Source of the DNA: Nemopilema nomurai
Lineage: Eukaryota > Cnidaria > Scyphozoa > Rhizostomeae > Rhizostomatidae
DNA length: 64,000 bases
NCBI GenBank assembly: GCA_003864495.1
Contig: ML133499.1
Span: 806,001-870,000 of the forward strand
Direction: 5' to 3'
Part shown: positions 25,687 through 63,216 of the stretch, one piece after another
How the letters are laid out: the number at the start of each line of letters is the position of its first letter
Position numbering within the stretch: position 1 is the stretch's first letter
Translations under genes and position numbers: made by a program
The notes under the pieces: generated by a model
What the model saw: only the letters and a program-made list of their open reading frames with translations
The model's database searches: none
What the model was told of the DNA's origin: nothing

Positions 25687-26016
25687 TTAACGTCGATTAA
25701 GAATATTTCCGCTGCTGCCATTTGATTTCGGTCCTTCTAATGTGTTTGTGTCAAATCCCTTCGTACAAACTCGGCACCTGCTAACACGTGATGTAAGGTC
25801 ATGACCTTTGTCCCCGTGCAGGGTTTCCACTTCTGCTGCCTGGAACATAGCTTGTTTGTTTATGGTTCTGAGCCAGAAGCTAAATTTGTCACTAAAAAAG
25901 TCGCAAGTTCCCCTCTTGCCGTTGCACTCAATGAATGGGTTGGAACGGAACTTTTCCAAACAAGAACCAGATGACGTCAATGACTCACCAGTGCCAGTCC
26001 CCCCGCTTCCAGTCAT
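25687..26016 (-). CDS. NC1 exon 3: second C4 subdomain and C-terminal tail
   Basis: The final coding exon starts in phase 0 at 26016 and stops with TAA at 25689-25687. It contains [29 protein letters not shown] and SRCRVC, matching the second half of a collagen IV NC1 with its five cysteines. There is one extra residue between the FIEC and GTC cysteines (NGKRG in place of the usual four-residue spacing). After the last cysteine comes a tail of about 25 residues (includes [14 protein letters not shown]) that vertebrate collagen IV chains lack. The residue aligned with the sulfilimine Lys is His (in ETLHGDKG). Confidence 0.95.
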   Translation of the reverse strand: MTGSGGTGTGESLTSSGSCLEKFRSNPFIECNGKRGTCDFFSDKFSFWLRTINKQAMFQAAEVETLHGDKGHDLTSRVSRCRVCTKGFDTNTLEGPKSNGSSGNILNRR

Positions 26017-29000
26017 CTACAAATAAGCAAATAACAATTAGGGATGGCTGTGAAATTTAGGCTGCATTTACATGATACAGGATACCTTTCTACAGTTATA
26101 CACATAGGCCGTTTACACAAGTACTGGAAAATCATTAGCCCACAAAAATATGTAATAGCCCCTAGAACTACCACTAAAACAAAACAAGCAGAATAGCCTC
26201 GAAAAGACAAGAGCCTCGAATCGAGATCAAAAGTTACGTCATGCACAACCATGCACAAGGGGAAATTTAGAAGGAGCGGACCTTTCAGACAAATGTTGTC
26301 AACAAAAATGATTCGAAGAAATCACTCGCCATCTTGTATCAGTGATGTACAAAATCAAAGGCTTCTGCGCATCAAATCATGTTGATCATGATGGTTTAAA
26401 ACTAACGGAGCCTACCATAAGGAAACTGTAGCCAGACCATAAACTGCTCCAACCCAGCGGACAATCTGGATTCGTAGCTTCCTGACTGTGCACGGCCATA
26501 TGAACAGAAGGCGTCTCACAAACGACGCAGCGACTTATGAATGGTGTAACTGCGGAGGCCGATACTGCTGACATAAGCTGGGTATTCTGGGCCGACAACC
26601 AGTACATGAAATCGTTTCGTGAGGCATATCTGCAGTTCTTGTAAATATCGCAGACGACAAAAGGCATGGTACTGAACGACCTGCGTAATAAAAGCGATTA
26701 ATGTACTTGTCGCACCGAAGCACTCGATAAAAGTATCGGGAATATAACGGGATAATGTAATATAATCTCAAGCTAGGTAGCATATTGCAAAATAAATAGC
26801 AAACATTTACAGATAGCAAATATTATAACATTAACAATTATTCCAAATAAATCAAACATAATTACAAATAATTTCAAATAAACATTGGTTATGTATAGAA
26901 TCAAGTCTTTCGCTAAACCTAAACTACCGAGAAGATTCCAAAGGCAAGTTATTTGACCTTTCTTGACCTTATTTGACCTCACCTTACGCAGGAGCCGGCA
27001 TTCGCAAGATCCTGTCCATGTGCCATTCCATTCCCAACGGAATACATCCACGAGTATCCGTGCCATAGCTTTTTCAATCCATTTGGACACTGGGGAATTA
27101 TATCAGATTGACTGTGACGGACAATGTAGAAACCTTCAGCCACTGCAAGGGGTCCAGGCAATCCCTGGTCTCCCTCTGTACCCTTCTGCCCGACAGGTCC
27201 ACCGAAACCAGGCAAACCTTTCTCTCCATCTCGGCCGGGGTCACCTGGCAAACCAGGCATACCGTCTTTTCCCCTGTCACCTTTGACCCCTATTGGTCCT
27301 TCTTGGCCTGCCGGTCCTGCAGAGCATACAAAACATTGGAAAAGTCTGAAGACGCCAAAGAGCGTATGGTTTAGTTTCCAACCCGTAGCAGATAACCTTG
27401 CATACAAGGTTATCAATCAAAGGACAAAAGACAAAGGCCAGATCAATTCCAAACCATGTGCTGGCAATTTGGACACTTAAACATAATAATAGCAGACATG
27501 TGAACTCATATATATAATCTGTATGTCATCTCTGTTACAAAGTTGGTACAAATGCCTGTTGAAGTGAAGGGAAGGTAGCGGAATTAACAAAGGGCGTTCA
27601 GAAAAAAGTAACCAACTATACTTTTCTGACCAATCTTTTCTCCACAAAAAATTTGTTTTACAGTTTCAAATTTTTACAAAGCTCCCAATTTACGTTAAAT
27701 TCCTTGATGCATGACCTACTTTCCGGTTTTTTCAGATATTGGGGGGTGTCACGCCCCCCATGCCCCACCAATTGGCACTTCCCTGTATCTCGCTAAGAGC
27801 GAGGGGAGCTCCTAATTCTAAAGGCAGCAGACAAGCGTTATAATTCTTCGAATGCAATGTCCTTTGTTGAATGAACTGGCTCACTTCATAGTGAAACTAA
27901 ATGATCTGGGCTACCTTGGCTAGGCTCACAAAACATTTAGGCTACAGGAAGTCTTTAACTGTACAAAAACAACGAACAGAGTCCCCTGTAATTACCTTCT
28001 GGTCCTCTGAGGCCTTCAGGGCCTATTTTTCCCTTCTGCCCAGGAGAACCAAGATCTCCTTGCTCTCCTTTACTGTTTCTAGAGTCGAAGGTAACTTCAC
28101 CCATGTCACCCTTGACTCCTTTTGGCCCTCTTCCTCCTGGATCACCGTCCTCTCCATCAAATCCTGTAAGTCCTGCAAAGAGAGGAAAAGTCTATGAAAC
28201 AGAAGACTTTCCATTGTCTATAGAGTGCTACGGTAACGTACCGGACTGTAAAGTTCCGGTAGTGTAATGTTCCGGTCGTAAGAATGGCTGAAATAACAAC
28301 ACCTAGAGTTGACAGGAAAGATCCTCGCTCTTTCTTCACAATCTTTGTTATATTTACGATAAACGACATGCAAAAATAAAAACAAGAAAAGTACCTTGAG
28401 TTCCTGCGAACCCTCTCGCTCCTTTTGGTCCTATGGGGCCTGGGGGTCCAAGAACTCCCTTTATACCAACAGGGCCAACCTCACCGGGGGCACCTGGCTC
28501 ACCATCCAATTGTTCACCCTCCTCTCCTTTAGGACCATTCTTACCGACTGGTCCCGAATCTCCTTGGTCACCCTTAAAGCCTTTCATCCCATTTGGCGGC
28601 TCAGCTGGGAAACCTGCGCAAAAACAATTGAATAATTTAGTATTCTTTGATCAAATTAGTATGAGCACTTCCTTCCACATTTCAGGAACCATAATTGAAT
28701 GATACTCTAGGAAAAAAGCTGCTCAAGACGTAGTGAATACTTTAGATTATTAACAATACAGTTCAGTGCATCCATTTTTAACTCCACTTTAAACTAACAC
28801 TCTATCATTAACAATAATATATAACTACATATAAATTAATAAGATAGTAACACACATAAAGGAATTAAGATACATGACACCAGAGGAATTGTACCCTTGA
28901 TTTTTCACTCTTATCTTACTTTCTCAGTTATTCCCTCTTGAAGAATACCAAACCTAGTATATGGTTTGCAGTTTGTTGCCGAATGACCTAGTTAGGATGA

Positions 29001-32000
29001 CCGCTGCTAAATAAAGTTCAAATATAAGGCTCCGCTAAGAAATTCTGCGATTTGTCATCTGAGGATACGAGGGTAACTCACCCTTGGGACCTCGTTCTCC
29101 TAGGTCACCTTTCGGTCCGTTTAGTCCCATGAATCCCTGGAGACCCTGCTCTCCCTTTGGTCCAAGAAGTCCCGGGAACCCAATGTACCCAGGTTGACCA
29201 TCAGGGCCAGGCACACGAGCCCCATCCCGGCCTTTGTCTCCTAGCTGTCCTTTTGCACCAACCTCTCCCTGTTCACCCTTCAACCCGTGCAGTCCAGCAA
29301 CGCCCTGGGGTCCAAGAGGGCCTAAAAATTGAAAATGCATCACTAACACGTGGGCATGGATTCAGAGATTTATGACGTAAGATTCAGAGTTGACTCCCTA
29401 AACCTTGAGCGCGTTGTAAATGAACATTAGGTCAAAGTCAAAAGAAACCTTTGCTCCAAGCATCGTTAACGGACAGATACAAAGGACAGAGACAAAGGAC
29501 AAAGACAACGGACAAAGGAAAGAGACAAAGGACAGAGATAACGGACAAAGACAAAGGACAGATACAATTTTCCTTGATTTCTTGACTACCGTAAATCCTC
29601 GAATTGGCCCCCCTCGAAAAACCCCCCCCTCGAATAAGCCCCCACCAAAAAATGTCAAAAATAAATAAGGGGGCTTATTCGAGGATTTGCGGTATCTAGC
29701 GAGCCAAATTAGCTTGCCAAATCAACCATGCACGCACCCATATTCAAAATCTTTTCATGCAAAACAATATATTACAAAGAATGAAGAAATCTGGAAGTGA
29801 CATGCATGTCAAACATGTTTTAATTTTGCCGATTAGCATCGTCTATAAAAAGTACAGACCTCGTGGCCCTGTTTCCCCCTTGTCGCCTGCTGGTCCCTTC
29901 TCCCCCTTTTGCCCAGCTGGGCCCTCTGATCCATTTCGCCCTAATATTGGGTCGGGAGGAGTGAGCAATACTCCATCTCGGCCCTTCTCTCCTTGACGAC
30001 CTTGGTCGCCTTTGTAACCTAGAAATTGAATGTTTTCAATCAATAGATATATAACAGTTTCGTTTAATAATAAATTAGATGGGTCAGTAATGAAAAACAA
30101 CAAATAAAAATAAAATGAGAATCGTATTCAAACAGAACATCATACATTATAAACACTATAATGAATAATGAATATAAGCAATATAATGAATATAATCATA
30201 ATTAAAAACTATTATCACTATTCCCTGATTTGATATAAGACGCTTCTTAGCATGCACTTTTTCACAAAATATTAATGTAAACAATGTAATAATATATGTT
30301 AATATAATCAACATTACTATTTTACTTTCAATATATTCTTACATTTTCTCATAAAGACCCAAGACACAAATTCAAGATTGAAAAAATCTTGTTACAAGCC
30401 CCCTAGTTTCCACAAGGGTCAAAAATAATCATCCGATATAATTTCTTGCATAACAAGAAATCACTTCGATACTCCCAAAGTGCATCTAAGAACAAAACCA
30501 GAGAGCTATCTCCTTAAAAGCAAAAACCGAGGCCGGTATATTACCGGATTGTCCTTTGTACAGCCGGTTGAGAGCGTCTTTTGGCATGCTGCTGTCCTCG
30601 CCATCGAACCCAGGGAAACCCGCTTCTCCGACATCGCCAACTTCTCCTTTGACACCCTTAGGACCTGGCCCTGTGCGGGCGCCTTCGGGAATTACACCCT
30701 TCTCTCCTTTCAAGCCCTCGTAGCCTGATACAATACAAAACAATACATAAATAACGTACAGGTATAAAAGACGTAGATGGAGATGCGACGGCGTCCCTGT
30801 GCAAACCTGCAAACCACTGTGCAAACCATAGCAAGATGCTGGGTTAAATAAGGTGCAGATGGGGCACTAAATTGTGCACTGCTTGGCTGAAAGTTTTCTA
30901 ATTTTTTCAACATTTAAGTCCTATCTAGCACAAAAATGTCCATCTAAAATGGACTGAAAACTGATCAATTCAACAATTCAACATATTTCATTAAATCATG
31001 TGATGATCATGTGATGATCATGTGATGAGCATGTGATGAGCATGTGATGATCATGTGATGAGCATGTGATGATCATGTGATGAGCATGTGATGATCATGT
31101 GATGAGCATGTGATGATCATGTGAGCTGGAGAAAGTATCTAATCAGTTATGCTCAAAAATAAAATGTCTTTCTTCAAGAAATATATATTCGAAAAATCAA
31201 GAAATAAGGACGACATGGATCAAATTCATCACGTACCTTTGGGTCCTCTTAGACCAATTGAGCCAACGTCACCTTGGATACCTTGAACACCCCTGTCACC
31301 TTGTGTGCCTTGGGGACCAGGTTTACCTCCGGGACCACTTTCACCAGCATCACCTTGAAAAAACAAACAGAGTCAAAATAGATAAGGCCCAATTGGAAGG
31401 CGGGAGATAAAAAACAGTACATTAGGCAGGGTACATGCAGCCTTGTTTTCACATGACGCGGTTGCAATTACTACCATCTTCGTGCGAGAAAAAAGGGGCG
31501 AAGAAATGTAAAAAAAGGTCCAAATACATACCGATGTCTCCCGTAACACCCTTGCTACCCTTCTTTCCTGCTGGTCCCTCAATACCATCGTCTCCTTGGA
31601 AACCGGCGCGACCTTCATTACCGACTTGGCCTTTGACCCCTTTGTCTCCAGAGAAACCTTTTGGTCCTGCAGGCCCGGCCTTCCCTTGAGGACCAGGGTC
31701 ACCGGCTGGACCAAACGGCCCACCTATGGAACAAAAGCTATTGCTAAAGAAGCGCCTGCATAGCAACAGAACAAAATAGACAAGCAAGACTCCTCAAATC
31801 TCTTGAAAAAGCAACTATAGCTATAAAACAAAAACTTTCATAAAAACATAAGAACATAAAAATATAAGAGATAAAGGAGTGAGTTCAAAAGGATAATACG
31901 AGTGTTTTTTAACCTCGTTCTCACATCTGCCTCTTCTCGCTCCTGATGGTAATTATTCTTTTACAGAATAATCTTCAGTATGTATAGTTATAGTGTCGTT

Positions 32001-34579
32001 ACATAAACACGAAGATACACATAAAACAAGAGAGTCTTTTTCACAAATCCTTTGCAATTAGATGCTTGTGGACTTCAAGCTGCCATCACTAGAGGAGAGG
32101 GGCGAAAGGGTGGTTGTGTTGTATGGAAATTGTTAAATGACGAAGTCAAACGCATGCGCACCTGTGCAAATGAGAGCAGAGGCAACCTCAGATGAAATCT
32201 CCTTTATCAGGCGGTCGAAATCGGCCGCAAAAAAGACGAACGAAGACTTGGAAACTATTTCATTTAACTGCAGAAGGTCAATCTCCGGGCCAATGCCAAC
32301 AGACAGTATCTCAACGTCTTCGCCTCGAAGTTCCCTCGCGGCTTGAGTGACGTCAACGGACCCAGGCTCCACGGATTGTTGGCCATCAGTGAGAAGAATG
32401 ACAACCTAGCGAGAATGGCAAAGAGATACGTCATGTTTGACCTACGAGTTTCACGTGGTCCATAAACAGTGTTTAAGGTGTATAGGAACAGCTGATACAA
32501 CAGCTATGGAAGATCCATCAAGCTTCTCTACTCATTTTCCTGTGACGAAAGTTTACCGTGTTTTCCTGTATCCATGAGCTCTATGTGATTTATAACAATA
32601 TAGAGAATGCTTAAGGCACAAGGAAAGCGGCCAGCTACGGCTAAACGTGTCTAAAGATTCCATTCTTTAACTCTGTCTTGCTGAGTCTCAGGTGAACAAC
32701 TTGGTCCGTCTACAGTGAAATTTGGTCCGTATATATTGAATGTTTCATCCGAATACGGTAAATGTTTGGTCCGAATACTATCAAGGTTGGTCCGAACGCA
32801 GTTAAGTTTGGTTCGTATACGGTAACGAACAAATGCCTTTTCAGCGCTGTATCATTCTGAGCCAACGGATTCTGTATTAATTGGCTAATTCCTTTCCACA
32901 TCGCCTTGAACTCAAGCGAACATTGGCATGATGAATGAGCGCCCAAACAACTCTTGTACCACGTCATCTTTAGTTATACATACCAGTTATTGCATGGTGT
33001 AAACCAATAATTTGAAAAAACTTACTTTTCTTGAATAGGGCCTAGCCCCGTTAGCTGTAGTAAACATTTGATTCTTAGCCAGGATCAAGGCGCGATCAAT
33101 CCTTGTGTTAGATGACTCGTAGGGGATTTCATCAACTGCACTCTTTAAGCTCTCCTTATCGAAGTATTGATCAAACTTGACATGAATGACTGCATTTTTG
33201 CTATATGCCATCACGCTCACGCGGGTCTGCCTCCTATTAATGAGCTGTTTGTCGATGACGCTTTTGACGAAGGCCTTCTCTTTGTCATAGTTGTCAATGT
33301 ACAGGGAGCCGGAGGCGTCCATCAGGAATGCCAGGTCTAGAGGTATCTCGTTGATTCTAGCATCAGGAGGGCAGCCTGAAAAAATATTCTTGTTTATCTC
33401 TCTGAAAGGCGAGCCATAGAAAATAGAAAAGGGAAAACTTTTTCTGACTTTTGATGGCAAGATGGCATCAAAATTAGATTGATCCAAATTTTAGACACTA
33501 TTCAACGTCTGTTTTTACTGTATATTTCCGAGAATTGTTGCCCCCTGGAATCTAATTCTATTTACAATAATACCCCCCTTCCCTAAAAAGTAAATGAAGA
33601 ACCATTCAATAGATCTTAAGGGGTGTTCCTCTTTTCCTGTTATCCCGATAACATAAATTTGGGACATCAACAAAACAATAAATTGATATAAAATAAACAT
33701 TTATTTCTCCAAACAGCTATACTACCAGCAATACCAAGAACGGTGCCAAGCTAAAAAGTTAAATCACCTGGCAATCCTGGCAGTCCCTTGACACCAATGA
33801 AACCTTTTTCTCCCTTGTTACCTATCGAGTTGAAAGTAGCCGGCCTGCCTGCTTCTCCGATGCCTCCTTTCAAACCTGGGTCTCCAAGAGGTCCTTTTCC
33901 TCCCTTGGGTCCAGCTGGTCCTAGAAATCCCTTCTCTCCCTTCTTACCAACAGCACCAACGCTTCCCTTTTCACCTTAAAAAGTAAAACAAACCACATAA
34001 TATATTGTTCTTCTTGCATAACGGCCTAGTTATGTGCAGACTCGAGCCTCGGAAGGGAAACACAGTGTAGAATAAAAACGAGGCTGTGCAGGGGTTAAAA
34101 GAACTTACCACGACAGCCGATATCGTTCAGTTCCACTAGCTCTTCTTCGATTCTGGCATTCAGCGACTCAAAGTCAGTCTTCAGGAAGAGGTGATGATCG
34201 ACATCGACCATTCTGCGCAGCTGCAGTCGGTCAACTTCAGCACCGACACCAATGACATATACGCGAATTCCTCTGTTTCGAAGATTATTTGCCAGTGCGG
34301 ATAAATCATACGTCCTATCGCCAGGTGGTTTAGTTGACTGTTGGCCATCGGTGAGTAAGAGCACAGCCTAAATTGAAACATTTCATCAATGAATCGGATC
34401 GGATCGTAATAGAAACACTGGTGATTCAGCAAAACCAGGAGAAAGAGTTTGGACTCTTGGCAGGCAAATGAACAAGGTTATCTCAAGTCTTTTTCGAAAG
34501 AGCAAAGGCCTTAACCATAATAAACTGTGATTATCGGCTTTGATATTTTCTATTACACGAGTGTAGGTTATGAACAGTA

Positions 34580-34615
<36 letters not shown>

Positions 34616-37600
34616 CGAATGTTTTAACAGGATGACCTATCAGTACAATACATACTGTTATCATTAGGGTCCTGACACACACACGATGTCTATTTTAAGA
34701 ACAAGTCTCGGTAACATGTTATGAATATTGTAAATAGGGTTTTATAGGTTAACTTAATAAATAGCTATCATCTAGTACTTTTTGTAAGTGATGCTATAAC
34801 TTTAGGATCCCTTGAAATCAACCTGTTAAAGGGCAACCCTCCTTGAAGGAATTAAATTTGAAATATGAAATGAAAATGATGAGAGCATACCCTGAAGGCA
34901 TCCGCCCTGGCATTGTTGGATGTAGTGAAAACATTCCTATCTGCCGCAAGGAGAGCGTTGTCGATGTACGTGAATCGCTCGCTTCGATAAGGAATGGCAT
35001 CGATGGCATCGGACAAAGCTTGCTTGTTGGTATACCTTGTAAAATCGAATTCCGTTTTCAAGCTTTCGCCATACGTTACGACAGAAACATGTGTGTTCTG
35101 GGGGCTGACATCGAAAGCGTTCGTAACTAATTTGACGAAGTCTTTCGTCTTCTTGAAATTGTCTTTTCCCAAACTGGAAGAGGAGTCCAAGAAGAATGCC
35201 AGGTCTGTCCTAAGAACTTCGCGGCAAACTGAAATGAAGAAACTTCACCGTGAAGTAAGGAAATTTTGTTTCTTCTTCGCAAAAATTAAGCTTTTTAAAC
35301 AAACAACAGTCTTTGAGGCTACAGAAACATGCCCACTATGGATATCTTACCCCAGCAATTTTGTTCTTCTTCAAACTTAGAATTCCTCATCAGAATAATA
35401 CGTATCTTATCAGTACGTCGAAAAAGGTGAAAACAAATGCGACAACATTATAACAAAACTTGAATGGTAAAAATTAGGTTAGCTAGCGCCCAAAAGTGAA
35501 CACAAAATTCAAGCATAAATCAAACAATAAAGCAATTGTTCGATGGAAGGAGCGATAGTTTAGCGACGATTCTAGAGGTCTTGGGATTTAGGGTGTGGAT
35601 TTCGGAGATGTTAGAGTTAGTACATCAATCTTCAAATCGAAAAAGAATATTCTCAAATGAAAACAGAAATATTCCAGAGATGCAAGAGGCAGACTTACGC
35701 TTCTCGCCGGATTTTCCTTTTGGACCGGCAAGTCCGGGAAATCCTTTCGGTCCAAGCGGTGCTGAAGTGGCCGGTTTACCAGGGTCTCCTGTTTGACCCT
35801 TTAGCCCAGGAAGGCCTGAATCTCCTGTGTCACCTTTAGCTCCTAGAAATTCAAAGCACCGACAGTAAAACACCAATGAATAAACAATTGGTCCGGTGAC
35901 GCGGACAAGAAAACCGGACACCTGGTCCTATGACCCGGACAATGAGCTGGGCTTCTGGTCCTGTGACCCGGACAAGGAACCGGGCATCTGGTCTTGCAAT
36001 CTCGGCAAGGGCGTCTGGCTCTATGACCTAGACAAGGAACCGGCTCTACAGAATGTCATTTTCATTCCACCTTACGAAAATGAAAAAAGGCAAAACAGAG
36101 CTTCAATAAGACATACTAAAAAATAGCACTTGTAAAACACATTTACCTGGTGCTCCTGGGAATCCCATCAAGCCTTGGCGTCCCGGCAGTCCAAGGATGC
36201 CTTCTCCCTGGGTACCCTTTTGTCCCTTTTGTCCACGAGGACCACTCTCCCCCATAAACGAGACACCTTTTGGGCCTCTTCTGCCTGGTGGCCCTACTGG
36301 TCCAGCTGCTCCAATATCACCTGGTTCGCCACCTTCACCCCTTTCACCTAAAGAAGAACCGCACGGCGTTAAGGAGATTCACGGGTATTTACCGTATTAT
36401 TAACATTGAACTATGATCTTTGAACTATGATCTTTGAACTATGATCTATGAACTATGATCTATGATCTCTGAACTATGATCTTTGAACTATGATCTTTGA
36501 ACTATGAATATCTATGACCATGTGCATCTCTCCAACTTAATGTAAAACAATCCATTCGACAGTACCAATAGTACTGCTAAACTTTTTAAGGTAGAGTCAC
36601 AAAACATTACCTAGAAATAAGTTATATTTGCTAAGCTTTATCAGCGTTATCTGATAATTAGCACAAGCCTCTTGTGTAGTAGTGATTGCTTAGAATGAAA
36701 TGCAATATTCTTGGTGGATAGAAAATAACTGTAAGAGAGAATAGAGGTGGAAGTAAATGCTCAAAAAACATTCTGGCTAACCTTTCTGGGATGCACATCC
36801 CACTTGAAGCGCAGCACTGACTGCCGAAAAGCGATTGAAAAGGTCGTTGAAGTTCTTTGCTTCTACAACGTCAGAGGTACTTGAAGCGACTTGGGACAAA
36901 AGGTTCCAGTCGATTTCCGGTCCGCCAGCCAAGACGTAAATTCTCATTCCCAGATTCTTCAGTCCAGCAGCGGTTTTGATTGGGGATTCCATGTTCTCTG
37001 CGGTGCTTTGGTAGCCGTCCGTCAGAAGAACTATTATCTGGGAATCACCAAAGAAGGATTCTCACAAGTCACGTTATAACAACAACTCATAACAACTTGA
37101 TCGGTTCAAAACAGGAAGGCAAAGCCAGATGAGAACAAAATCTAACATTTCTAAAGTTGATGCGTGGTGTTCCATGTGACGTTGTTGTATGTGATGTGTG
37201 GTGTTGTATGTGATTTTACATGTTATGTTATGAATTTGTTGTATGTGGTATGCGGTGACAATGTCCTGCTACATGAGGTCGAGCATAGTTTCACCGTATG
37301 CTATACATCATACCAATGTCTTTACCTTCTTTGCGTACTTCTCTGCAGACTGTTAAGTTTGAGCTGAAGAAGCTCTGGATTAATTTGAAAACGTAGGTAA
37401 GCAATAATACAAAGATTGTTATGGATCAATATGTATAAGAAAACTCAAGGCTTGGGATGTTCACACATGTATAAGGCCGGGTGAAGATCAGAGCAAACCT
37501 ACCTTCTTGGAATCACTCCTTGCACCATTGGCAACTGTGAACAGGTTATCTCTTGCCATTTTCAAAGCGAGGTCGATTCTTGAGCCTCCTTTTGCAAATG

Positions 37601-40600
37601 GAATGCTATCGATCGAAGTATACAGGTCCTCATTTGTGAAGTAATCATTGAGGTTGGCTTCAATCTTTGCCGTGTCACTGTATCGAACGATTCCAATTCG
37701 GTTTCCTTCGATTGAGACTGGGTATATCACTTTGATTATCTCCTTCATGATTTTCTTCTGGGCCATGAAATTTTCCTCTAACAGCGAAGCGGAACTATCA
37801 ACAAGGAAAGCGATATCTCGCGTCTGATCTACCAGCTTTCCACTATCACAACCTGAAATTTAAAAAGCAAATGTTGAGGTAGTTATCACGTCAAGGATAG
37901 AACACCACCCTTAATTGCTAGCAATGTCGAATCCTCCGCAGATCTATAGGACGGACAAACATCATTCAACCTAATCGAGCAGGGGAAAATTTCATTTTGA
38001 AGGCGACGATAACATGTATATTCCATCTTGTTATTTGACAAATCTGAGTTACCAAATCTGAGTTAGTCTTTTCAAATAAAAAACAAAGAATGACAAATTC
38101 GGACACTAAAGTATTTCTTTCGCAATTAAAATAAGGACGTGTAAAATTTTCATCGTTTCAAGGAGGGCAAACCCCTCTCTGGTTTATAAACTATTAAAAC
38201 TGATAATCAGAAATGAAGTTAGCAAATCATATCATATCCAAAACCTCAAATGCAATTATTTGAAAAAACATCAGAGCCAAACTAGGTAGTTTTATTATTC
38301 CTTGCACGCGAATACAATCTGCAAAAACTTACTGCTTTTTCCTTTAATTCCAGTTGGCCCCTTGTTTCCAGCCAAGCCAGTTTTTCCTCGGTCACCTATC
38401 TCACCCTGTGGCCCAGGGTCACCTATGCCCCCCTTTGGACCTCTGACTCCCTTTTCACCTTTGGACCGAGTCACGCCAGGGTTTTCTGCATACGAGAAAT
38501 TATGTGTTAAAAGGGAGATATTCGTTTTGCAATATACAACAATTGTTGCAAAGCACTTAAAAGAGTATTTAAGAATAAAAATCGTTACAAAATACCTATA
38601 AAACTATTGATAAAAACTATGGCAAAACACGTAGAAACTGTTAAAGAAAAAAGAGCACCACACAAGCCATGTCCCAGTCGCATTAAATCAGAGTCAAAAA
38701 GATTTAAAATTTCTGACCAAAGCAATATGAAACCCTCTAGGAACCTTAAAACGAGCTTCGAATGTAAGCAAATATAACCACTGTGTCGAGTAAATCTTTC
38801 CAAAAGACTTAACATGGCATATAATCAGATGAAAGGACATTAATCTTTGGCTCATACCTTGAAGAAGTGACAAGACATCCGATGCATCGTCGCCTTTATC
38901 CCAACTATACCCTTGGGACCTGTATCCCCACGCTGGCCCCCGGTGCCTTGCTCCCCAGGGTCACCGTCATCTCCAACGTCTCCTACAGCACCCTTTGCAC
39001 CCTTTGAGATGTTATCTTGAATAAGAGAAATTCATCGAATAAACAACTTGGTTGTAAATACTTGTTTTATAACTTTGTCTGAAATTCAGCAGTTTGTTTA
39101 TAGTGCCAATATCTCTCCTTCAATCTTCTAAAAAACTCTAAACTTCATATGGTTTATATATGTTAGTTAAAGTAATAAACATTAAAATAGAAAGCCAAAC
39201 TCTCATTTAAAGCTCATACATGAAGGGAAAGATACAAATTTCATAATATTAAAATACGGATATCTTCGTAAACGGGAGTCTTAGATGAAAGCCACTTCCT
39301 ATTTTTTGAGTGAATATGAACTAAGTTCCATGTTCAAGCAACTTTTTACCAGTGAAATTACAAAAGAAGGTTCTGAAAATGCCTTTGAAAAAAGCAAACA
39401 TTTTTCGACATACTAAAAGCTTTTTCGTCTGACACTCCTCAGAGCTTAAAACGTCAGAATAAGGTTCCGAAAGAACACGATGAAAAATATATAACCAGTT
39501 GCGGTTCGGAATAAGCCAAACAGAAAGACGCAAGCAAAAGACCGGTATAGTTGACCAATCAGTGCCGCGAGCCTAAAGAAAAATTACCAATGGAGTCCAA
39601 GAAGGTTCTCTTAACTAGGGCGCTGTAAACGAATACAAGGTTTAGACAAAAAAATTTTGCGTGGTTGGGAATCCAATAAAAAAGAACATTTGAGTAATGT
39701 TTCTAATGCGTACGAATCTACTGTCTTTGTTATGGTTCTTTTGATTTTGCTTATACCTGGCTACCAAGCATAGTAAGAGACTTGATGTATTTCGCCACCT
39801 TCCATTATTACCATTGCAAATTAATATGACAGTTGGAAGGAAATCAACAAAACCTAACGACTTAACAAAGAACTCACAAAGCCGAAGCGCATCCAAAGCA
39901 GGCCCAGTGCCTTCCCTTCCCTTTTCGCCCGACTGACCAGGTAGGCCAAATTCGCCTGGTTCTCCAGGATCCCCAACATCACCCTTTGAGCCCCTTCGCC
40001 CAGTGATGGTGTCCCCAGTTTCACCACGCGGTCCCTTTGCCCCATCAGGTGCGTTCCTTCCACGGTCACCAGTAACACCACGCTCACCCTTTTAGAAATA
40101 AAGAATTTTTCTACATTTCAAACATCACTATAAAAGCTTATTAAACACCAAACCTTAAGACTGTATTATGCACGCACTAACAGATAGTGGCATAATCGAT
40201 AACTGCACAGTGGCGAAATTAGTCAAATCAATTAGCACTTGTATAAAACAAAAAGGTAAGCATACAGGATGAATAAACTTTGAAAATTATTTTACTGGAA
40301 ACTAGAACATTCCGCTGAAACGAATGATGCAAGTTAATGTATGAATCGAACAGTTAGTCACAACGCACCCTTCCTGGGCTAAGTCCATCGATACCCCGCT
40401 GCCCCTTTTCTCCCCTTGGGCCTTCGGGTCCGATGACTCCTTGCTTGCCCATTCTTCCAGCTTGACCTTTATCACCAACATCCCCCCTGTCGCCACCGAT
40501 AATACTTGGCTGATCTGCTGTTTCTCCTTTCTGTCCAGGGTCACCCCTGTTGCCTGGTTGACCTTGATTTCCCTAGACAAACGTGTCATAATGCTCTTAC

Positions 40601-49600: not shown

Positions 49601-52600
49601 ACAAATTAATGAATAAATAAATAAGTAAATCAATCAATCACTCAATCAATTAGTCAATCAATTAGTCAATCAATTTATAAATAGAAAATTGTTAACTTGT
49701 ACATCTTTTAGTAAATTAGAGACAAGTTTAATAACCTTGATTAGAAAAAAATCTTATCAAGATTCGCTAATTATCATCTTAAGAAATGCTGAAAATCTAG
49801 AAAATCTCCAATCATACCTTGGGGCCTCTCGGTCCGGCCTCGCCAACTGGTCCGGCTACTCCGGGAAGACCATCAACACCATCAGGTCCTACCACTCCCT
49901 GGCAAGAAAAAGAAGATTTATGGCCGTGTTCAACAACCGTGTGGCATTTCAAATATTCCAGGCATCAAATTATCACAAAGATTAAAGAAAGGAGTTATCA
50001 CCGGGAGAATTCCAACGATATTATTAGAAGTTGGGTAGGATAAAAGAATATTGACCACCTTCTTCTACTTACCGGCTTGCCTTTAATTCCGCAGTCTCCG
50101 GGGCGACCGGGTCGACCTTCCACTCCGGGGACTCCCTGTGGAAAATCAAAAATGCGGGTTAATGATTAACAAAAATAAAAGAGGTTGCTCTCAATTCGCG
50201 AGGATGGCTCAGTTGTTAGAGGCGCTGCCTAAAGACCCAAAAGTTCGTGGTTCGAGTCCTTGGCACGACCAAACATTCACACAGAGTAAGGAGAGTCACC
50301 AGCTCTCTGTAATTCCAAGCATAAGGAATCACGAGGTGTGGTCATATCAAGAGAAAGGACCAGGACACTGCTCGATAACCTTAGGCTTCTTAGTCTCCTA
50401 AAATATACCTTTGGATGCTAGGTAGAAACAAATACAAATACGATTTGCTGATGACTCCAGAATGTTTCAAAGGAGACTTCTTAGGCAAGGAGAATTTTTG
50501 TAAATCTTGATTCTAAATAGTACAATTCGCTTTCGTTTTGAGTCGATTTGGCGTTCGGAGTCAACCGGGCATTAAGACCAGGCAATGAATGTACTCAAAA
50601 CCTTAACTTACCGGTATTCCATTAAGACCCGGATGGCCGGCATGCCTTGCAGTCCCTGGTTCACAAAAGAAAAGCAAGTCATCAGTGAGGCGGAAGGGTA
50701 GACCGCTTTTTACAATACCTTCTGGACAAATGTTTAATGTTACTAATATACAATCGAAACGAAACGGAATCTGATCGACGAAAATACATTCGCATGCTCT
50801 AGGTGTGTGTGACGTTTTTAATGTAGCAATTTTAAGAAGGTTTGCAGTTCAAAACAAAATCAGAAACCTTTGTTAGAAAAGAATAGTTTAAAAGACATTT
50901 GTTAGAACACCATAAATATTATTCATTTCTCGCAATTGAAGAAACATCTAAATGAGATTTACCAAGATTACTCTTGCCTCTCTTTATTTGTTGATACCAC
51001 AATATCGCTGCGAAAAAGCTCTAACGGATCATGTTAGGAACAAAAAGTGAGCGGGTACTTACGAAGTCTCCTCTTCTACCACGACCACCTTGCAACCCTG
51101 GGTCACCTCGGCTGCCCTTTGGTCCATGTGGTCCTGGTGCACCAGGGAGACCCTGTGGAACAAAAATCATTTCTACTTTCAGAAGAAGCAGTCTCGGTAA
51201 CATTTAATTCAAAATAAAAATGCCCTTGTGATTATTACGTCACATCAGCTCGTCAATACAGTGTGGCGTGATTTTGATAACTTTTCTTCATTCATCCCAT
51301 TCAGAATATTTTTCAATAATTCAAGTTTGTAAATAAAGGAAAACAAAATAGAAAAGATCAAGTTTACTTTGTTAAGCTTAAAATAGAAATATGCGAAGAG
51401 TTTAGATTTTTTGATCCAAGAATGGGATAATTTCAAGAGTTGAAATTTCGAAAATAATTAGCAAAGAAGATGCTCACGTTCTCGCCAGCTCGTCCTTGCG
51501 GTCCAGGAGGCCCATGACGTCCCTGAGGAAAAAATTGGCACATTGTTACCCTACTGTTAGGTAACTGGATATGAAAGGCGCGAAGGTGTGACAAATGTGA
51601 ATGTGCACACGATGTGAAAAAAAATAAACGAAAATATTGAAGAGAAAGCAGGTCAAGGATAGCCTTCATAGGCCTTCATAAATTAACTGGACTGAAAAGA
51701 GAAGAATTTTTAAAGATCAAAGATTAATTTAAGATCAACTTAAATCTAGGTCCACAATCTGTTAAGAGAGGAAAAATCTCATCAAGTCTGTTCAAAATTG
51801 AATCTCACCATTGCGCCTTTGGGTCCTTTGATGCATTTTGGAGCTCCACATTTCTATAAAAGAAACGCTCAATAAATAAACCAGCATTGGAATAAATTGA
51901 GGTCTTAGAATCATATGAGTTCTTGAACACTTGTCATTAACGACGGTTATATGTTCTCTTAATATCTCTGCTTGTTGTCTAAAAATAAACACAAAATAAT
52001 TTGCACCGTAAATTTATTGTCCAGATGTCCTAAGCTGGAGAGACAACATTTGGATAATTCAAATTCCCTACCTTTGGAACTGGTCTTGTTTCTTCCGTGA
52101 TTTCTCCTGTTTTCAATTGTGCCGCTATGAATGTAAATCAATAGAATAAAATCACAAAACAATGTAATTAACATGATATAGTTAATATAATATAATATAT
52201 CATTTAATGTAATATGAAATATAGTATAAATATAGAACACAATCTACGCCACACTATATACCATAATACGATGTAAAACAAATTAGATATGATGAGAAAG
52301 TTACATGGCGATAAGAATCTTAGATAGTCAGATAACTTTACTATGCATTAGAAAAGAATTCAGAAAGTTCCCTATGAATTCCAGTTCTAAGAGTTCTTGA
52401 GTAAGCGCTATGAAACAGGTGTTGCCCAAGCAACGTCAGAGTTCATCGATTTCAACCACATCAAACAGTTTAGCTGAAACATAACGAAACACAAACATGT
52501 TTGACAGCTGAAACTGAAACACAAACATAAAAAGTTTGAGCAACGGAAACATACGTGCGAAACATGCAGTATCGGAAATGTCTTGGGAATACTGTTTCAT

Positions 52601-55600
52601 GTTTGAGAAAGTCTTCACCAAGAAAACACGACTGTCGCCATCCCCGTAGTTTGTTATGGTCTCTAGGGTCTTGATTTCTCTCAAAGGTCCAACGCCAAGA
52701 GCCACAAAATTGACGCCTTTCGATTTCAAAGCTTTAATGCTGCCCCGCATACCACTTATTTCTCCGATACCACCATCGGTGACAATAACCATGAGCTGCG
52801 GAGGAGTCGAAGTGATCTTATTAAAAAATTCAGAATGGACACATTAAAAGCGATTAACCAGCAAAACTTATATCAAACAATTTTAAATAATTCATAAAAA
52901 GCACCTTGAAGGCATTTTTCCGTAATCCATTGTTCTCGCTGTAAATGCCCTCGTTCACAAGGTCTAGAGCAAGATCCAGACGAGACTGCCCCCCTGTAAA
53001 GCGAATCTTTCCCAGTGCATCCATTGCAGCTCGCATGTTTCTCCCGGGGTAGTCCTTGAAGGTCCATTCTACATTTGCCTGTGTTCCAAAGCAGACCACT
53101 GACACGTGTGTTTGATCCGGTCCAACGTTAAAATGTTCCATCGTCCTACCGACGAACTGTTTCACTTTGTCAAAGTTCGCTGCACCAACACTGTCAGAGT
53201 GGTCCAGGACAAACGTGAGGTCCACTTTGCGACGGCAGACTAAAAATAAAAGATAATTAGAGCATACTGCTCTGATCCACTTAATATTGCGAAGAACTGC
53301 TTAAAGATGCTAGAGGGAGCTTCACTATGATCAGTAAGCAGAGTCCAGAAAAGTTGTTCAACTTCTTCCAGACAGAAACATCTTAGAAGGCAAACCTTCC
53401 TCAAAGAACAATAGAAAGTGGGCGTGGCCTAGGTGTGTCACATGGGCTTCTATTGTTTTTCGAGGACCTTCCTCCGGTCAGTGACCGTGCGACCGTAATG
53501 TTGGAAAGACTTTGGTGTTCAAAGATGGTCTTTCTTCAATTCAGCATTAGCTAGCTGAATAGGTAAAAAGGCTGCTCAAACCAGCTTTCACAAAACAACA
53601 ACATTAGTTTGCCACTAGTGCTACCCTTCATCGCGTCTGCCTTTATCTTGCTTTATGATTAATTTGGCTCTTTATTTGATAGTCAAGGCCAATAGACGTC
53701 TACCAAAATCAAATTCAACAACGATGTTGCTAGGAAACACTCTGTGAACTTACCCCCTGATCGCGGAGTGCACGTCTTTCGGCAGCCATCAAAACAGCAC
53801 TTGGATTCGCCGTAACACTCGAAATCAGTCTTACACTCGTCCTTACTCGCAACGCAATTGTTTTGCTGCTTGATGGCGTAACATGTCCCAGGCTTCTCTG
53901 CAAGAAAAATCATTTGGAGCAATTACTGATAAGTTTGATTGAATGATTAGCGGAGACACTATTGCACGTGCTTTGCTATTTATTACCTGATTGGTGCATC
54001 ACTCTGAAACACGTACGCTTACGATTTAGGCAAATGCAGACAGTTGAAATACACATCAAATCAAGGCTTTTTCACTCATAAAAATACCTGATATCTGACA
54101 ATTCATAAGATCTACTTGGAACACAAAACACATACCAACATTTGTTCCCTACCCTGAAACAAGGAATTCACGAGAATACACAAATTTATGAAAAAGCCGA
54201 AAGAAAAACATACATACCCCTGCAAATTTTCTCTGTTAAACTGAACAAACTCGGAATTAGCTCGTTGAAATTCTTTCCAGTGAAAATATAATCTTCAGGT
54301 GGTGTTGATGCGAATTTTTTCAATTCAAAATGGTTCACTTCAGGTCCCACCCCGACTGCGATGACATTCACGCCATAATCCTTCAAAGGTTTCACCGCTA
54401 CACTGAGGTCCTCTGAGCCACGATTGGTACTTCCATCTGTGACAACAACCAGCACCATGGGCCGTCTTTGTCTCACGTAGCCGTCCAAACTGAAAATGCT
54501 CCTCTTGGCCTCACGCAAGGCCTTGTCGATCCTCGTTCCAGTCTTCATGTGGGGAAGATTGTCGATGGCGGTCTTTATGCTATCTGCGTCATCGTAGCGC
54601 ACCAAGTTAAACTCGACGTTCGTCTCGCTGCTGTACAGGAGAACGGAGAAACGTGCGTTGTTCTGAGAAACTGCGAAGGAGTCCACAATCTTCTTTACGA
54701 CCTCCTTCATGCGGACGTAGGAAAAGTCCCGGATGCTGCTGGAAGAGTCCAGTGCGAATCCGATTTCAACCGGAACCAAACAATCTAAAAGAGTCCGGAA
54801 CGTTGATCATTTTAAGACCCATAAGAAGCCGGATTCCAAAATTTTTAGATAACAGCAAATATCAATAAAAATAGGGTTGCAAAATAATATTATCGATAGG
54901 GTTGCAAAAATATAAAAGAAATGGGCAAGACATATCAACAGGGCGAATAGATCATTAATCATTGAAGGCGCTGATTAAGAATTGTTGAAACAGACCCGTG
55001 GAGTGAAGGATGTCACTGCTGAGGAATTGGCAAAAAATTCTATCTGAGAGATTTAGTCAAAGGAATATGGCTTTGGAGGAATCCCTGGTTTAGCATTTCT
55101 GGGAGCAGTGTATTTCTAATACGCCTTAAACATTACGTCATAAATACCCCTTTGAATGTTACGCCGAAAAAGTGTGAAATTATATTAAATGTTGCTGATG
55201 GCTGAATCAAAACGAAAAGGCACATGCTCTTACTGACCTGTCAGCGTATTTAGTGATCAACAATGCTCGCGGAGCAGAAAATCAACTTTTTATTGGTTAG
55301 GCATGCATTGGTTGAAAGAGGGGCAAGAACAACCACAGGCGCACCCAACTTATAAACCCCTCTAAAATTACACCTAAAGGCTGGCAATTTACACCTTGCC
55401 AACGACAGTAAGGTAAAAGAATCCTCTTCCACGCCTCCATGAAAAATGCACTGGACCTGTCGCGCGAAATGCACACTGGGAACTTGACACCTTCTCCATG
55501 TGACACCTTCTCCACGTGATACCTACTGTCTTAAGTGGCCGTGAAGGGCCTCTGGATTGTGTCATTCCCACAAGCTTAAATGACAAATGACCTGATGTTG

Positions 55601-58600
55601 GACGTCTCTGCTAAAGGACCTTTGACGGCAAGGCACCGTCTTTATATTGAATTTCAGAAAGACAAGTCATTTCCTAACACACCCAACCAGGTTATTATAA
55701 AACTCGTTAGAATAGGCTTATCTCGCAATTTGAAAGTGATTAAGAGTATTTCGGGTCTCTGGACACAGGTCGTATGTCAGATAAAGTGGTGCCAAAAAGG
55801 CGACTTCGATTCTAAAACAGTTAATTCAAAAAACTTGATTGTGGGGAAACTGAGAGACTAATTCACTACAACTTTCAGGTATTGAGAGGACAGGCAACAA
55901 AGCGTAGGAAAAATAATTGTTTGGAATGGGAATTAATTGAAACAAGGTATGATTGCAAATGAGTGGTAAGGACTGGGGCTAATTAAAAAGATGATGTGCG
56001 AATGATAGTTAAGACTGATTATTTGTGATTCGTGATGATTGATCATGACTAATAATGATTTATGCCGTTTCGCAATTATTGACAATAATCACTCGTGGTA
56101 ATTGGCAGTGATTTGAGGTGAATCATAACGTTTGGCCATGATTGATTGTGATTCCAGTTGATTGTGATTCCAGTTGATTGTGATTCGTGATGATTGGTGA
56201 TGACTTGAAGTGATTCATGATGTTTGGGGGACTTATACTGTTGATGAAGACGTTATTTCTAAGCATGAAATTGAGATACGAGAAAAACGTAGTCACTCAC
56301 TCAGAAGAGGGAAGACGCATTTACGGGAGCAGCCATTGAAACAGCATTTCTGTGCTCCAGGGCACATTCTGTCTGCCCCACATTCGTTGGTCTCATCCTC
56401 TCCACATTTGGTAACTGCAGGGGGCAGAGGGCACTTTCCCCGTTTGGCTGAAACAAACATGACCGTTATCTTTAAATACCTGTGAAAATCTTGTGAAACG
56501 AGGTTTACTCTAAAGTGAGAAATAGTCTTTTACAATAACCAAAGATACGGACACTTCAACACTCAACAATCTAGCTTTGCAAAGAAAATTTAAAACTTTT
56601 AGTGGATTTGTTCGAGAAAATTAGGCTTAATTTATCACAAATTGTCACAATACTTTACTTAATTATAATTTAAGGTCTTAATTGGGTCAAATACGCAAAA
56701 TTTCATAATTTGGTGACACCCACAAGTGTAATTGTGCAAAGGGAAACGTTGAAAGGGAGAATCTTTGAAAAGAAAATTTTCGCATTTATTGGGAGACAGT
56801 ATTGGTGTTAATTGGAAACGAATGACGAAAACTTTCGGAAACTCGCATCAGGAATTTTCACAAGAATATTGGCACTTGATTTGATTCCCAGGACTGCAAT
56901 ATTGCTATAAATCCACCCCAGACCAAATCACCTCATCATAATTTGACTCTTTCTACATTTTAATGACTGCAATACTGCTGCGTGTCTGAGGGCGCACAGT
57001 GACCAGAGAGTAACTGAACAATTCGAACGACAACAAACAAGAAACGCAGCCACGATAACATGCGAACAAGTTTCCTTCCCGTACTCCAGAGGAGGAAGAT
57101 GCACGAGATACTTTGGTAAATACAATTTGTTCTTAATGCACCGAAAAGAAAGACGGCTGGAGGCCATTTCCTGCCCTTTTCGACTGGATTTCAAATGAAT
57201 CAGGAAACCCATTAAGCAGATGCACGGGTCATAGACTCGAGCGACCTAAACATAAACCGTGAATGCTTTGAAATTAGGGTCTTTTAGTCCCGAGCTAACA
57301 GGATTCAGATCAACGGAGGCTGTATTGGTCTCTCAATAATAGAGACAAAAAAACAGCAGTATTCATTCTAGTTTGAAATCTTATTTTGAGAAAAAGGGCA
57401 ATCAATCAACCGAGTTCAATCGCGAAACGTTGCGTGGGGTTGGGAAAGGTTCGGTTCATTAAACAGAATGTCAATCTCAACCTTACACGAAAGTATCCAT
57501 CTCATATAACAGCTTCCTTCTCATACAACAGCCTCCATCTCATACAATAGCCTCAATTTAACGCAATAGCCTCAATTTCACGCAACAGCCTCCATCTCAC
57601 GCAACAGCCTCCATCTCATACAACAGCCTCCATGTCACACAATAGCCTCAATCTCACGCAACAGCCTTCATTTCATGCAACAGCCTCATTCACATGCAAC
57701 TGGCTTTGTCTTAGGTATCTGCTTTGCATAAATTACTTGCCTACAAAGCTGCTGCAATCACACCGAACAGAGATCTTTTGACAATAAGTGAGAATAAATG
57801 AGGGGGAACAATAAAGTTAGAAATAAATCCTTAAGTCTTGGTAAAGATGATAAATGTGTTTTATAAAGGTCTCCTTGAACTAGGATGACTTGTGAATAAC
57901 TAACTCACCCTGACATCCTTTGTACGATAGTTGCTTTATGATGGTCTTCAGTTTGTCTAGGCCAGCAACTTGAAGAATATGCTCAGATGGAGGCTGCGAA
58001 ACAAACGAGTTCAACTCCGCAATGTCGACTTTCTTTCCAACAGCAATGGCGAAAATGTTGACTCCCTTGGCCTTCAGCGCATTTGCCGGGATGGACACAT
58101 GCTCCTTGCAAGCGGTGCAATTACCATCTGTTAAAACAATGAGGACAAGTGGGACATTTTGTCGGATGCCCCCTTTGAGAGAAAACATCTCCGTGTTAGA
58201 CAGTCTCAGGGCATCGTCAGTAGCTGTGGTGTAGCCAAGGTAAGATATATTGTCAATCTTGTCCAATAGGGTTGCCTTGTCAAATGTCTCGTCCAATCGA
58301 ATAGCAACCTTTGCCACGTGACTGAACACGATAACACCGGCGTGAGTGTCTTGGATGCCGATTTTGTATGAACCGACCAGGGCCTTGGTGAAGTCCTTGA
58401 TCTTTTGAAAACCTTCAGATTTCACGCTACCGGAAGCGTCATGAGCAAAAACCAAATCGATTGGCTGGAAGCATTCACCTGAAAATTGAAAAGGAGCCTT
58501 GAAGATTTGTTGCTTATAAAAGCCACAAGAGCTAAAACAGTTATGTAGATGTTTTAATGAAGCTATGAAGTAAAGTTTCTCAATATGCAACTGTTTAAAA

Positions 58601-61600
58601 ATTCTCACAGACCCAAACACACATGTAAAGTTGTCAGACTATTAACAGAAAAATACTATTTATTTCCAAGCTCGAGACTCCCTGTCACACGAGCTCTTTG
58701 GAAATGGTTAGCGGTTGAGCTTTTGACAATATCATGGCGGCATTCTAGCTGTTGTTAAAGATGGCAGCCATGACGCTGAAAGAAATTGCATAATGCAAAT
58801 GTCTTATGCTGACTAAAGCCTAATTCTTGGTCAAACCCGATATGTCCTATCAATAAAGCTCTACGTTAAAAAAGCTTCTTGCTTACTTGGGCATTCGCCT
58901 TCTTGAGCGACCGTAATCTGTTGTTTTTTCAAGCATGCTTCGGCCCGCAAAACGCATCTGTTTGCGTAAGTCTTGCCATTGGAACCGCATACTGGGCTGT
59001 AATCTGCCGTGCACTGAATGTTACACTCGGCTGAAAAAAGCAATTCATGTTAAACTGGATAAAAGTGAATTAGTTACCAATGCTTTCAAGGCAAGGGGGT
59101 TCCACAGCATAACACTTTTCTTTTAAAAGCAAACAAAAATTTGTAAAAATTAATCATTATTGGCCTATAAAAAGTCAGCTGCAAAATTATAGACTTGCAA
59201 ACCATAGAATAAATCTGGCGTTAACTATCCCATCCCTTTAATGTGCAACTTCCCCAAGTTCTTTTAATTCCGCTATAGCATATGGAATCATAAATAAATG
59301 TTGGTTTGCTGGAAATTTGAAATTTTCTACTACAGCTTAATGTTAACTTTAAATCACCTTAGGCCAACATTTGTATGCTGCACAAAACTTATGCACCGGA
59401 TAAACATGCATTTAGGCCAAATCAAAAATCAAGAATCAATTACTGGGCGATGCCTTAGAGTGGGAGTGGTTTATTGAAGAGGAACATACCCCCGTCGCAC
59501 GCTCCCTGGCTTGCCACAGTTATTGTCTTCCCGCTGGTACAGGCCTCAGCCCTGAGAACACATCCATTGGCATAGGTAACGCCATCTGAACCGCATACGG
59601 GGGTAAAATCTACCCCACATTTGAAGTCACAATCTACAATGGAAGATATAAACTATGTTATAGCGGTAAAGCTTGAAAACACGACAGCTAAGAAGACGTT
59701 CCAAAAACCATCCCTAAGCCTACCCCCCTTTCTTCTAATCACACTTCTCTTAAAAGAGCTAACTAAACTTGGAAACTAAACTTTCTGCCAAAGTAATTCG
59801 ACGGAGGAATACAAGCGATTACCAGCTTTTGCGCAAAAATGTACAATACTTCCCTATTATGAGGCAAAATTTTGAAACAGGCTAGGGATTTTATGGTCCG
59901 TTAGGTCCTTCCATTTTTAGGCCCAGTTTGAAAGAATTTTTCCATAAAAAGATCTTATAGGAAACCAACCACTAAGTTGGCAAAACAGTAATATCGATTA
60001 TCCTTTAACTCATAACTGTTCTTGAGAAAATTTCTCTGATTGCATTTCAATTTTTCAAAAAATGTGAAATGCGTGGTTATCCACTGCTAGCTAAATAAGA
60101 TCGGTATATGGTAAAACCCAAATTTTTGATCCTTCAAATTGAAGCAGTCTATTGATCTTCAACGAGAAATTTCTTAATTTGACCCTTACGGTAGTGCCCC
60201 TTGTATAAGAAACACAATTTCCTAAAATCAAAAAGGTGTTTGTTATAGACGGGACACTACAGTATATCAACTAATATTTAAGAATATTTAAGAGACTTTT
60301 AGTATTTTTGTCTGAGTTTCTTACATAGAGTCTGTGTACTAAGGTTGTCACAAAACAGTTTCAAGACTTGTTGATGCTCCGCGTTTTGTTTGAAGGACTT
60401 TCTGGACCAAGTGCTTCATATAACACGCTGCTTTTTCAATATTGGTTCGCAGATGAGTCAATTGATGTCACAAGCAAGCGAATGAAATGGCAATGTACAA
60501 AGGGCCATTGAGCAAACGCAGTCATTGAAAAAGCTGAATTAGAAAAACACGGGCATTAACATTTTAACCTTGGAGACATATGACCCAAAATCAAAAAGAA
60601 AGTTGAAGATATTTGAAGCAACGTGACCCACAGGTCGCTGTGGAGGACAAAACCGAAGAGTTCTGAGTATTGTATGGACTCTTCGCTCGCCAGTCACATT
60701 GGGAGGTGAGGTTATCGCTCGCCATTATGGAACTTCACCAGACCACGCAAAACAATTATGGAGTTTTGTTATATTGCCACTAATTGCAAGACAGTTTTAT
60801 TTTCTTGCGTGCTTCAGTTCAAACGGTATTTTGTGCTGTGCAAGGGGAAGTTCTTCCAGCGCCTCTTTTGTGGTTTTCATTATGGCTCTTAACCTTTAAA
60901 TTCAAAGAAAAGGATTTGCCTTATGGTATTAGATTAAATTGGGACAATCATGAACTCGATCTTAAAATCTTTCGTTGGAGTACTAAAATGTACAAAACGA
61001 GATTTCTTGATTTTGGATAACGGCAGCAGGTCGGGTAGACTTTAAATGCAATTTATATTTGCTTGGGAAAAGCTTCATTTGCATCCACGGCTCCTAAGCG
61101 GCACCCAACAATTTGCTTCAATGGTTCCTTGATTTGCCTAAGCCGAGAAACAACAAACAGGGCCCTTTTTGCGGCCCTAACGTTGTGTCACTTTGAATTG
61201 CCATTCCACTTCCATAGGCTTGAGGGACAACAGAGCATTTGTTCAAACCATTCTGCATTAAGCAAGCAAAGTCACTTCTTGTAGTCTTCTCTTTGTTATG
61301 AATATAAAAATTAAATCTTCCTCGCTGAGTACCCGAAACAATAAACAAAGCGCCCTTTATAACTGCATGGATTTACAAACACAAGTCAATGGCAAACGCC
61401 CTTCCTTTAATATTACCGCAGTTGACACGGACTAAACCTTCACTCTCTTCCAATCTTTATGATATCTAAACAACTAAAAAGGACCTACATGTCGAGTAAA
61501 TTACGTTGCCAAATAGCAAAAGACAACTCAAATACGCAGAAAAACAAGTGAGAGTTTATAAGCCTTCATTCGCTTCCAATTTTGATGGTCTTTAAACAAC

Positions 61601-63216: not shown

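Follow-up and report, generated by a model that had tools for sequence, protein, structure and literature searches.

The window analysed here, a stretch of 64,000 nucleotides of genomic DNA from the scyphozoan Nemopilema nomurai (C133:806001-870000), carries a real, single gene (gene A) that encodes an Hcol6-type collagen, a conserved medusozoan gene of an already described kind. What looks new, within the literature searched, is that an ordinary collagen IV gene (gene B) adjoins this Hcol6 gene back to back. Since the human collagen IV genes are arranged in the same way, the head-to-head position of genes A and B suggests that Hcol6 may be the second chain of the COL4A1|2 pair in remodelled form. 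We consider it highly probable that gene A encodes a scyphozoan Hcol6-type collagen IV chain which neighbours an Hcol4-type gene and has acquired vWA, WAP and Kazal exons, and that it works in the manner proposed below.

Structure of the Hcol6-type gene

The model of gene A, built from splice sites and coding signal by a finder with a Gly-X-Y bonus and curated by hand, comprises 56 exons on the minus strand and has a genomic span of ~41 kb. The original prediction of about 56 exons on one strand is therefore sound, save that 55 of them lie in the window and one beyond it: the proposed start at 63216 had to be rejected, and the signal-peptide exon was located at C133:872705-872627 (66705-66627 in window-extended coordinates), 2.7 kb past the window edge. 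This exon was found with the N-terminus of a related protein, P0001 (E 1e-10), and presents a donor score of 3.0 and a phase that fits the first Kazal exon. A pattern search of the window for Gly-X-Y runs returned runs on the minus strand and 0 on the plus strand, and the chained models extend from the Kazal exons through to the NC1 stop codon at 25689-25687. On the one protein thus encoded, Pfam identifies six VWA, 19 Collagen, two C4, two Kazal and two WAP matches. These matches, together with the relatives described below, uphold the claim of one gene whose chain unites an NC1, a 7S-like start and vWA domains, and the predicted vWA6-helix junction (32162 to 31723) and exon at 27316 coincide with our model.

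The encoded chain reads signal peptide-Kazal-Kazal-vWA1-WAP-vWA2-WAP-vWA3-7S-like start-helix I-vWA4-helix II-vWA5-helix III-vWA6-helix IV-NC1, all on the minus strand. The two Kazal domains (59490-59633 and 58887-59030) are each encoded by one phase 1 exon. Single exons also encode vWA1 (57909-58478; MIDAS motif DASGS, T, TDG) and vWA2 (54218-54784; DSSSS, T, TDG), which are followed, respectively, by the WAP domains at 56301-56447 and 53754-53897, while vWA3 (52555-53239; DHSDS, S, TDG) is divided between exons 53239-52905 and 52795-52555. A linker exon (52072-52124) precedes the 7S-like start (50073-51853), which is made up of exons 51853-51809 (containing KCGAPKC), 51522-51478, 51152-51063, 50655-50612 (44 nt) and 50135-50073 (63 nt, with a cysteine). 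Helix I (38333-49898) occupies 22 exons, from 49898-49818 to 38485-38333, and includes a frame change at 38902-38900. Within the helix lie vWA4 (36782-37852; exons 37852-37503 and 37037-36782), vWA5 (34109-35228; exons 35228-34891 and 34367-34109) and vWA6 (32162-33375; exons 33375-33026 and 32405-32162), and these alternate with helix II (35699-36347; exons 36347-36147 and 35842-35699), helix III (33768-33974; one exon) and helix IV (27147-31723), the last running over seven complete exons (31723-31532 to 28172-27996) and into the 5' portion of exon 27316-26983. The rest of that exon, exons 26680-26416 and 26016-25690 and the stop codon form the NC1 with its two C4 repeats (25687-27146), in which M and K occupy the Met93/Lys211 places. 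The split vWA domains, vWA3 to vWA6, are all interrupted at a like place. The DxSxS and TDG motifs are present in all six vWA domains, with T at the third MIDAS place in four of them and S in two.

A continuous splice phase had also been predicted, and this is true of most of the gene; exon 39015-38858, compared with the relatives, needs a one-base frame change at the GGG run 38902-38900, after which acceptor 38485 follows. Exon 50655-50612, in turn, measures 44 nt where the relatives, compared by eye, suggest 45. Both one-base differences sit in G runs and are probably assembly errors; with the GGG-run exon read as in the relatives, the corrected model is 3110 aa long. Several elements of earlier models were discarded. 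The weak acceptor 38555 (score -1.8), which had kept an earlier model in phase, was replaced by 38485 on the basis of P0001, as was the exon pair 51152-51089/50655-50612 by 51152-51063/50655-50612, and the small exons 62066-61999, 42050-42030, 39622-39588, 36020-35922 and 27782-27720 were dropped as unsupported. The two differences in reading frame with respect to the relatives might also be taken to mean that the copy of gene A in the assembly is a pseudogene. We regard this as very improbable, given that both fall in G runs, that no stop interrupts the remainder of the more than 9 kb of coding sequence, that the identity to P0001 is 81% from end to end and that the genome search yielded no further C4 locus of the gene A type among the matches listed. 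Apart from gene A, the minus strand of the window has, at 21519-22976, a reading frame of 486 aa that contains a peptidase M3 domain.

Relatives with the same domain plan

A whole-chain search scored on the NC1 part (460 candidates) returned six proteins of 3012-3108 aa (P0001-P0006), all of which combine Collagen, WAP, VWA and C4 in one protein. Kazal matches occur in two of the six, the two leading Kazal domains being present in gene A, P0001 and P0002 and in none of P0003-P0006. Corrected gene A is 81.0% identical to P0001 over 3065 aa, 64.1% to P0002 over 3074 aa and 44.5% to the Hydra protein P0005 over 2880 aa, and the earlier gene A model is 40.8-41.6% identical to P0003, P0004 and P0006 over 2939-2948 aa. 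The spacing of the helix parts is nearly constant, with parts II, III and IV measuring 116-119, 69-83 and 476-485 residues in the seven chains. P0001 is devoid of part of WAP1 and of the KCGAPKC exon, both of which are found in gene A and P0002, possibly through an annotation gap.

These relatives bear directly on the integrity of the gene A model. The exons of gene A are linked by the model and not by reads, and one of them needs a frame change, as might be seen if a vWA/WAP protein, a vWA collagen and a collagen IV, encoded by two or more adjacent genes, had been wrongly joined. Yet the whole plan is found in one chain in six proteins of other origin, and the longest contigs of four of them (P0002, P0003, P0004 and P0006) measure 9376-10218 bp, which is the size of a cDNA as opposed to the ~41 kb spanned by gene A; wrongly joined genes are, hence, an extremely improbable explanation. 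For the relatives, the existence of separate genes, which the original prediction had named as its refutation, is excluded, and for gene A it is very unlikely.

P0005 is the product of Hydra vulgaris LOC100214647, a 3012-aa 'uncharacterized protein' with the same plan minus Kazal, and we infer that it is the protein named Hcol6. Hcol6 has been described as a chain that unites an interrupted helix, a type-IV C-terminus, and WAP and VWA domains (PMC9966395, section 3.5), all of which are present in the gene A chain, and the same study counts it across 11 medusozoan genomes. Two earlier statements are accordingly not upheld: that no chain with this plan had been described, since Hcol6 had already been reported (PMC9966395), and that Hydra Hcol6 lacks an NC1, which finds no support in that report or in the Hydra vulgaris protein. 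Orthology between gene A and the Hydra chain is indicated by an NC1 clade with 100/100 support, by the grouping by position of five of their six vWA domains and by the identity given above. Both chains are alike in the order and spacing of the six vWA domains, the two WAP domains and the NC1, whereas the Hydra chain differs from gene A in having no Kazal domain and in having the crosslink places of its NC1 occupied by K and D. Among the 27 distinct proteins obtained in the protein searches, seven of which have VWA and C4 together, no anthozoan, sponge or ctenophore names were found, and PMC12549020 reports no Hcol6-like sequence for Nematostella.

In a tree of 34 vWA domains, v1, v2, v3 (90/87), v4 and v6 each group by position across five chains. 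The v5 domains, by contrast, are divided between two groups, and v4-v6 come together with 91/87 support. Grouping by position implies that the six-vWA plan is older than the split between Hydra-type and jellyfish-type chains. The DxSxS pattern is missing from vWA3 in P0003-P0006.

Head-to-head arrangement with a canonical collagen IV gene

A profile search of the genome (212.9 Mb in 226 contigs) yielded at least seven C4 matches (10 candidates), with two loci among the matches listed, both of them on contig C133. Gene B, a canonical collagen IV gene, lies on the strand opposite to gene A, with its predicted start at C133:875877 and its stop codon at C133:905681, and the two genes stand head-to-head with 3172 bp from predicted ATG to predicted ATG. 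Inspection of the gene B model by eye revealed no vWA, WAP or Kazal exons. A tandem repeat with a 233-bp unit (3.6 copies, 96% matches) is located between both genes, at window-extended positions 67940-68783. COL4A1 and COL4A2 likewise stand head-to-head (PMC12141075), as do the two collagen IV genes of Nematostella and of Trichoplax (PMC5395295). No mention of Hcol6 as a head-to-head partner of Hcol4 was found in a literature search that covered mostly papers outside subscription journals.

The likeness of both genes extends to their exons. Aligned by length under a scoring scheme of our own, with short and long exons shuffled apart and both models drawn from the same finder with its Gly-X-Y bonus, the helix exons of genes A and B score 40.1 against 17.3 +/- 4.3 for the shuffles (highest 30.6), and 0 of 1000 shuffles reach the observed value. 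A first version of the comparison, made before the P0001-based exon changes in gene A that were incorporated into the second, gave 0 of 500 shuffles as good. Exons 90198-90218 and 97744-97839 of gene B had been dropped beforehand and exon 72452-72490 stays doubtful; a protein search for a close relative of gene B against which to check its model found none. Fifteen of the 30 paired helix blocks are equal in length and 24 differ by no more than 9 nt, and gap-free pairing takes in only 23 blocks, from 51853 to 39878, beyond which five exons of gene A and four of gene B are left unpaired. Both genes use mostly phase 0 first and phase 1 later, and in each of them phase 0 reappears at two exons that are matched between the genes (40572 and 40088 in gene A, 90380 and 90756 in gene B). 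At the 7S-like start, the KCGAPKC and GDCG cysteine exons of gene A pair with the CSSSCSTCNTVC and GCNG exons of gene B, the 63-nt exon 50135-50073 being the one that faces the GCNGTKG exon, with two cysteines at this start in gene A against four in gene B. The helix totals are also close: the six relatives range from 1464 to 1492 residues, uncorrected gene A has 1499 (~1476, by arithmetic, once corrected) and gene B has 1460. In view of the canonical head-to-head neighbour and the common exon plan, the hybrid basement-membrane/beaded-filament collagen of the original prediction is better recast as a collagen IV gene that has gained vWA, WAP and Kazal exons.

The NC1 tree and the origin of the pair

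The NC1 tree, computed on 20 of the 27 rows, recovers the Hcol6 clade mentioned above on a long stem (0.67) and places gene B in a group (91/85, below star level) that also includes alpha1-like chains and a single ostracod row on a long branch. Grouping of gene B with alpha2-like chains is rejected (p-AU 0.015), and none of the placements of Hcol6 is: p-AU values are 0.27 with gene B, 0.21 with alpha2-like chains and 0.08 with alpha1-like chains. Taken by itself, the NC1 tree does not single out one ancestry for Hcol6, or one vertebrate chain as its counterpart. As Hcol6 and gene B may still form one group, the pair could be traced to a late inverted duplication of Hcol4 within the medusozoans instead of to the old COL4A1|2 pair. 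Such an origin appears unlikely, however, in the light of the position of gene B with alpha1-like chains and of its rejected union with alpha2-like ones, and the head-to-head pairs reported in Nematostella and Trichoplax make an old pair the simpler source.

Crosslink residues in the NC1

The places of Met93 and Lys211, located by their distance back from conserved cysteines, are held by M and K in gene A, in gene B and in six of the seven other Hcol6-type chains (P0001-P0004, P0006 and P0017), and by K and D in Hydra P0005. They can be read by pattern in 18 of the 27 rows, the count leaving out nine (P0016 and P0019-P0026) that are unreadable or match at a wrong place; 17 of these 18 present M and K, and the remaining one is the Hydra chain. 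An HMMER alignment agrees on the lysine of Lys211 and sets the M opposite the first M of the alpha2 MM pair; against alpha1, the M falls opposite Met91 with a two-residue gap after it. The sulfilimine bond is reported to be absent from Hydra (PMC5395295). A change of both crosslink residues of Hcol6 in an animal that lacks the bond fits what might be expected of a shared NC1 hexamer. With regard to peroxidasin, the genome was searched at the level of the An_peroxidase family, which gave 22 matches.

Proposed assembly of the Hcol6 chain

According to the explanation favoured here, a collagen IV gene would have acquired vWA and WAP exons, joined in some members by Kazal exons, ahead of its 7S-like start, and three more vWA domains would have been inserted at exon borders inside its helix. 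Judging from the family, the NC1 would select chains and join protomers end to end in hexamers, and NC1-driven trimerisation of the gene A chain follows, as an expectation, from the same family knowledge. Since the helix totals agree, the helix may be in register with that of its partner, with the inserted vWA domains looping out and the others standing at the amino end. The vWA domains would bind metal-dependent ligands and might thereby tie the basement-membrane net to the mesoglea, and the Kazal and WAP domains may either protect the chain from proteases or serve as spacers rich in cysteine.

We put the chances that Hcol6 forms heterotrimers with the partner chain encoded by gene B at even. 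The wider proposal, in which Hcol6 would be the missing second medusozoan COL4A1|2 chain and would still form Hcol4-Hcol6 heterotrimers, giving vWA-studded nets in the basement membranes of jellyfish and Hydra, is advanced tentatively and with a likelihood slightly short of even. It is also conceivable, if rather doubtful, that Hcol6 chains assemble into homotrimers and build a net of their own apart from collagen IV, in which case the pair position and the NC1 would reflect ancestry only. Three equal chains with vWA domains at the same places would need no looping out, the stem of the Hcol6 NC1 clade is long, and PMC9966395 lists Hcol4 and Hcol6 apart from each other among the network-forming collagens. 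Homotrimers sit less easily with a helix whose total comes near that of the plain partner, or with crosslink residues that are kept in the partner and in six of the seven relatives and are both changed in Hydra, where the bond is lacking.

PMC12141075 regards the alpha1-alpha1-alpha2 protomer as the progenitor scaffold for the basement membranes of animals, and Table 1 of PMC9966395 lists one Hcol4 gene for Hydra and for most medusozoan genomes. Should Hcol6 be the partner chain, the second chain would have been converted into an adhesive one rather than lost, and NC1 selection between a plain and a vWA-bearing chain would become testable in Hydra or in jellyfish. The identification of Hcol6 as a putative remodelled partner chain of collagen IV provides a link that is testable and, within the literature searched, new, and the structure of gene A indicates that a collagen IV helix can bear large folded domains at exon borders while the lengths of its helix parts are kept.

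Comparison with other collagens

Several features ascribe gene A to collagen IV. Its C-terminal NC1 comprises two PF01413 matches (E 3.2e-71) and has matches among collagen IV NC1 domains of solved structure (13 distinct sequences), its gene belongs to a head-to-head pair, and it possesses the long, interrupted helix of collagen IV (~1400 residues), which totals 1464-1499 residues in the seven chains and is split by three vWA domains. Gene A and the canonical members (gene B, Hcol4 and COL4A1|2) are alike in their helix total, helix I exon plan, NC1, head-to-head position and M/K places, and perhaps in their cysteine-bearing 7S-like start. On the other hand, its six VWA, two WAP and two Kazal domains depart from a plan of 7S, helix and NC1 only, and it is because of these extra domains that gene A is filed as Hcol6, a derived chain, and not as a canonical collagen IV. 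In the collagen VI type, vWA domains surround a short helix and no type-IV NC1 is known; set against this general plan of a vWA-rich collagen, gene A is set apart by the presence of its NC1. Among the proteins retrieved, P0020, from Branchiostoma belcheri, is a C4 collagen with EGF-type families in its Pfam list, and may represent another non-canonical NC1 chain.

Hcol3 is a fibrillar collagen whose amino end carries WAP and vWA domains, and an Hcol3-like locus (C90:3266355-3282052) presents three WAP and four vWA domains followed by a helix. Its last three vWA domains lie in a single, a single and a split exon with WAP between them, which is the order vWA1-WAP-vWA2-WAP-vWA3 of gene A, but, unlike gene A, this locus has a fibrillar-type end (by eye) and no C4 among the matches listed. 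This agreement in exon order raised the idea that the vWA block derives from Hcol3; as the vWA tree neither resolves the Hcol3 domains nor ties them to the vWA domains of Hcol6, the idea was retained as a lead only. Lastly, dozens of vWA matches, some of them with equal scores and regular spacing, are clustered on one strand over ~100 kb at C24:1986938-2084965.
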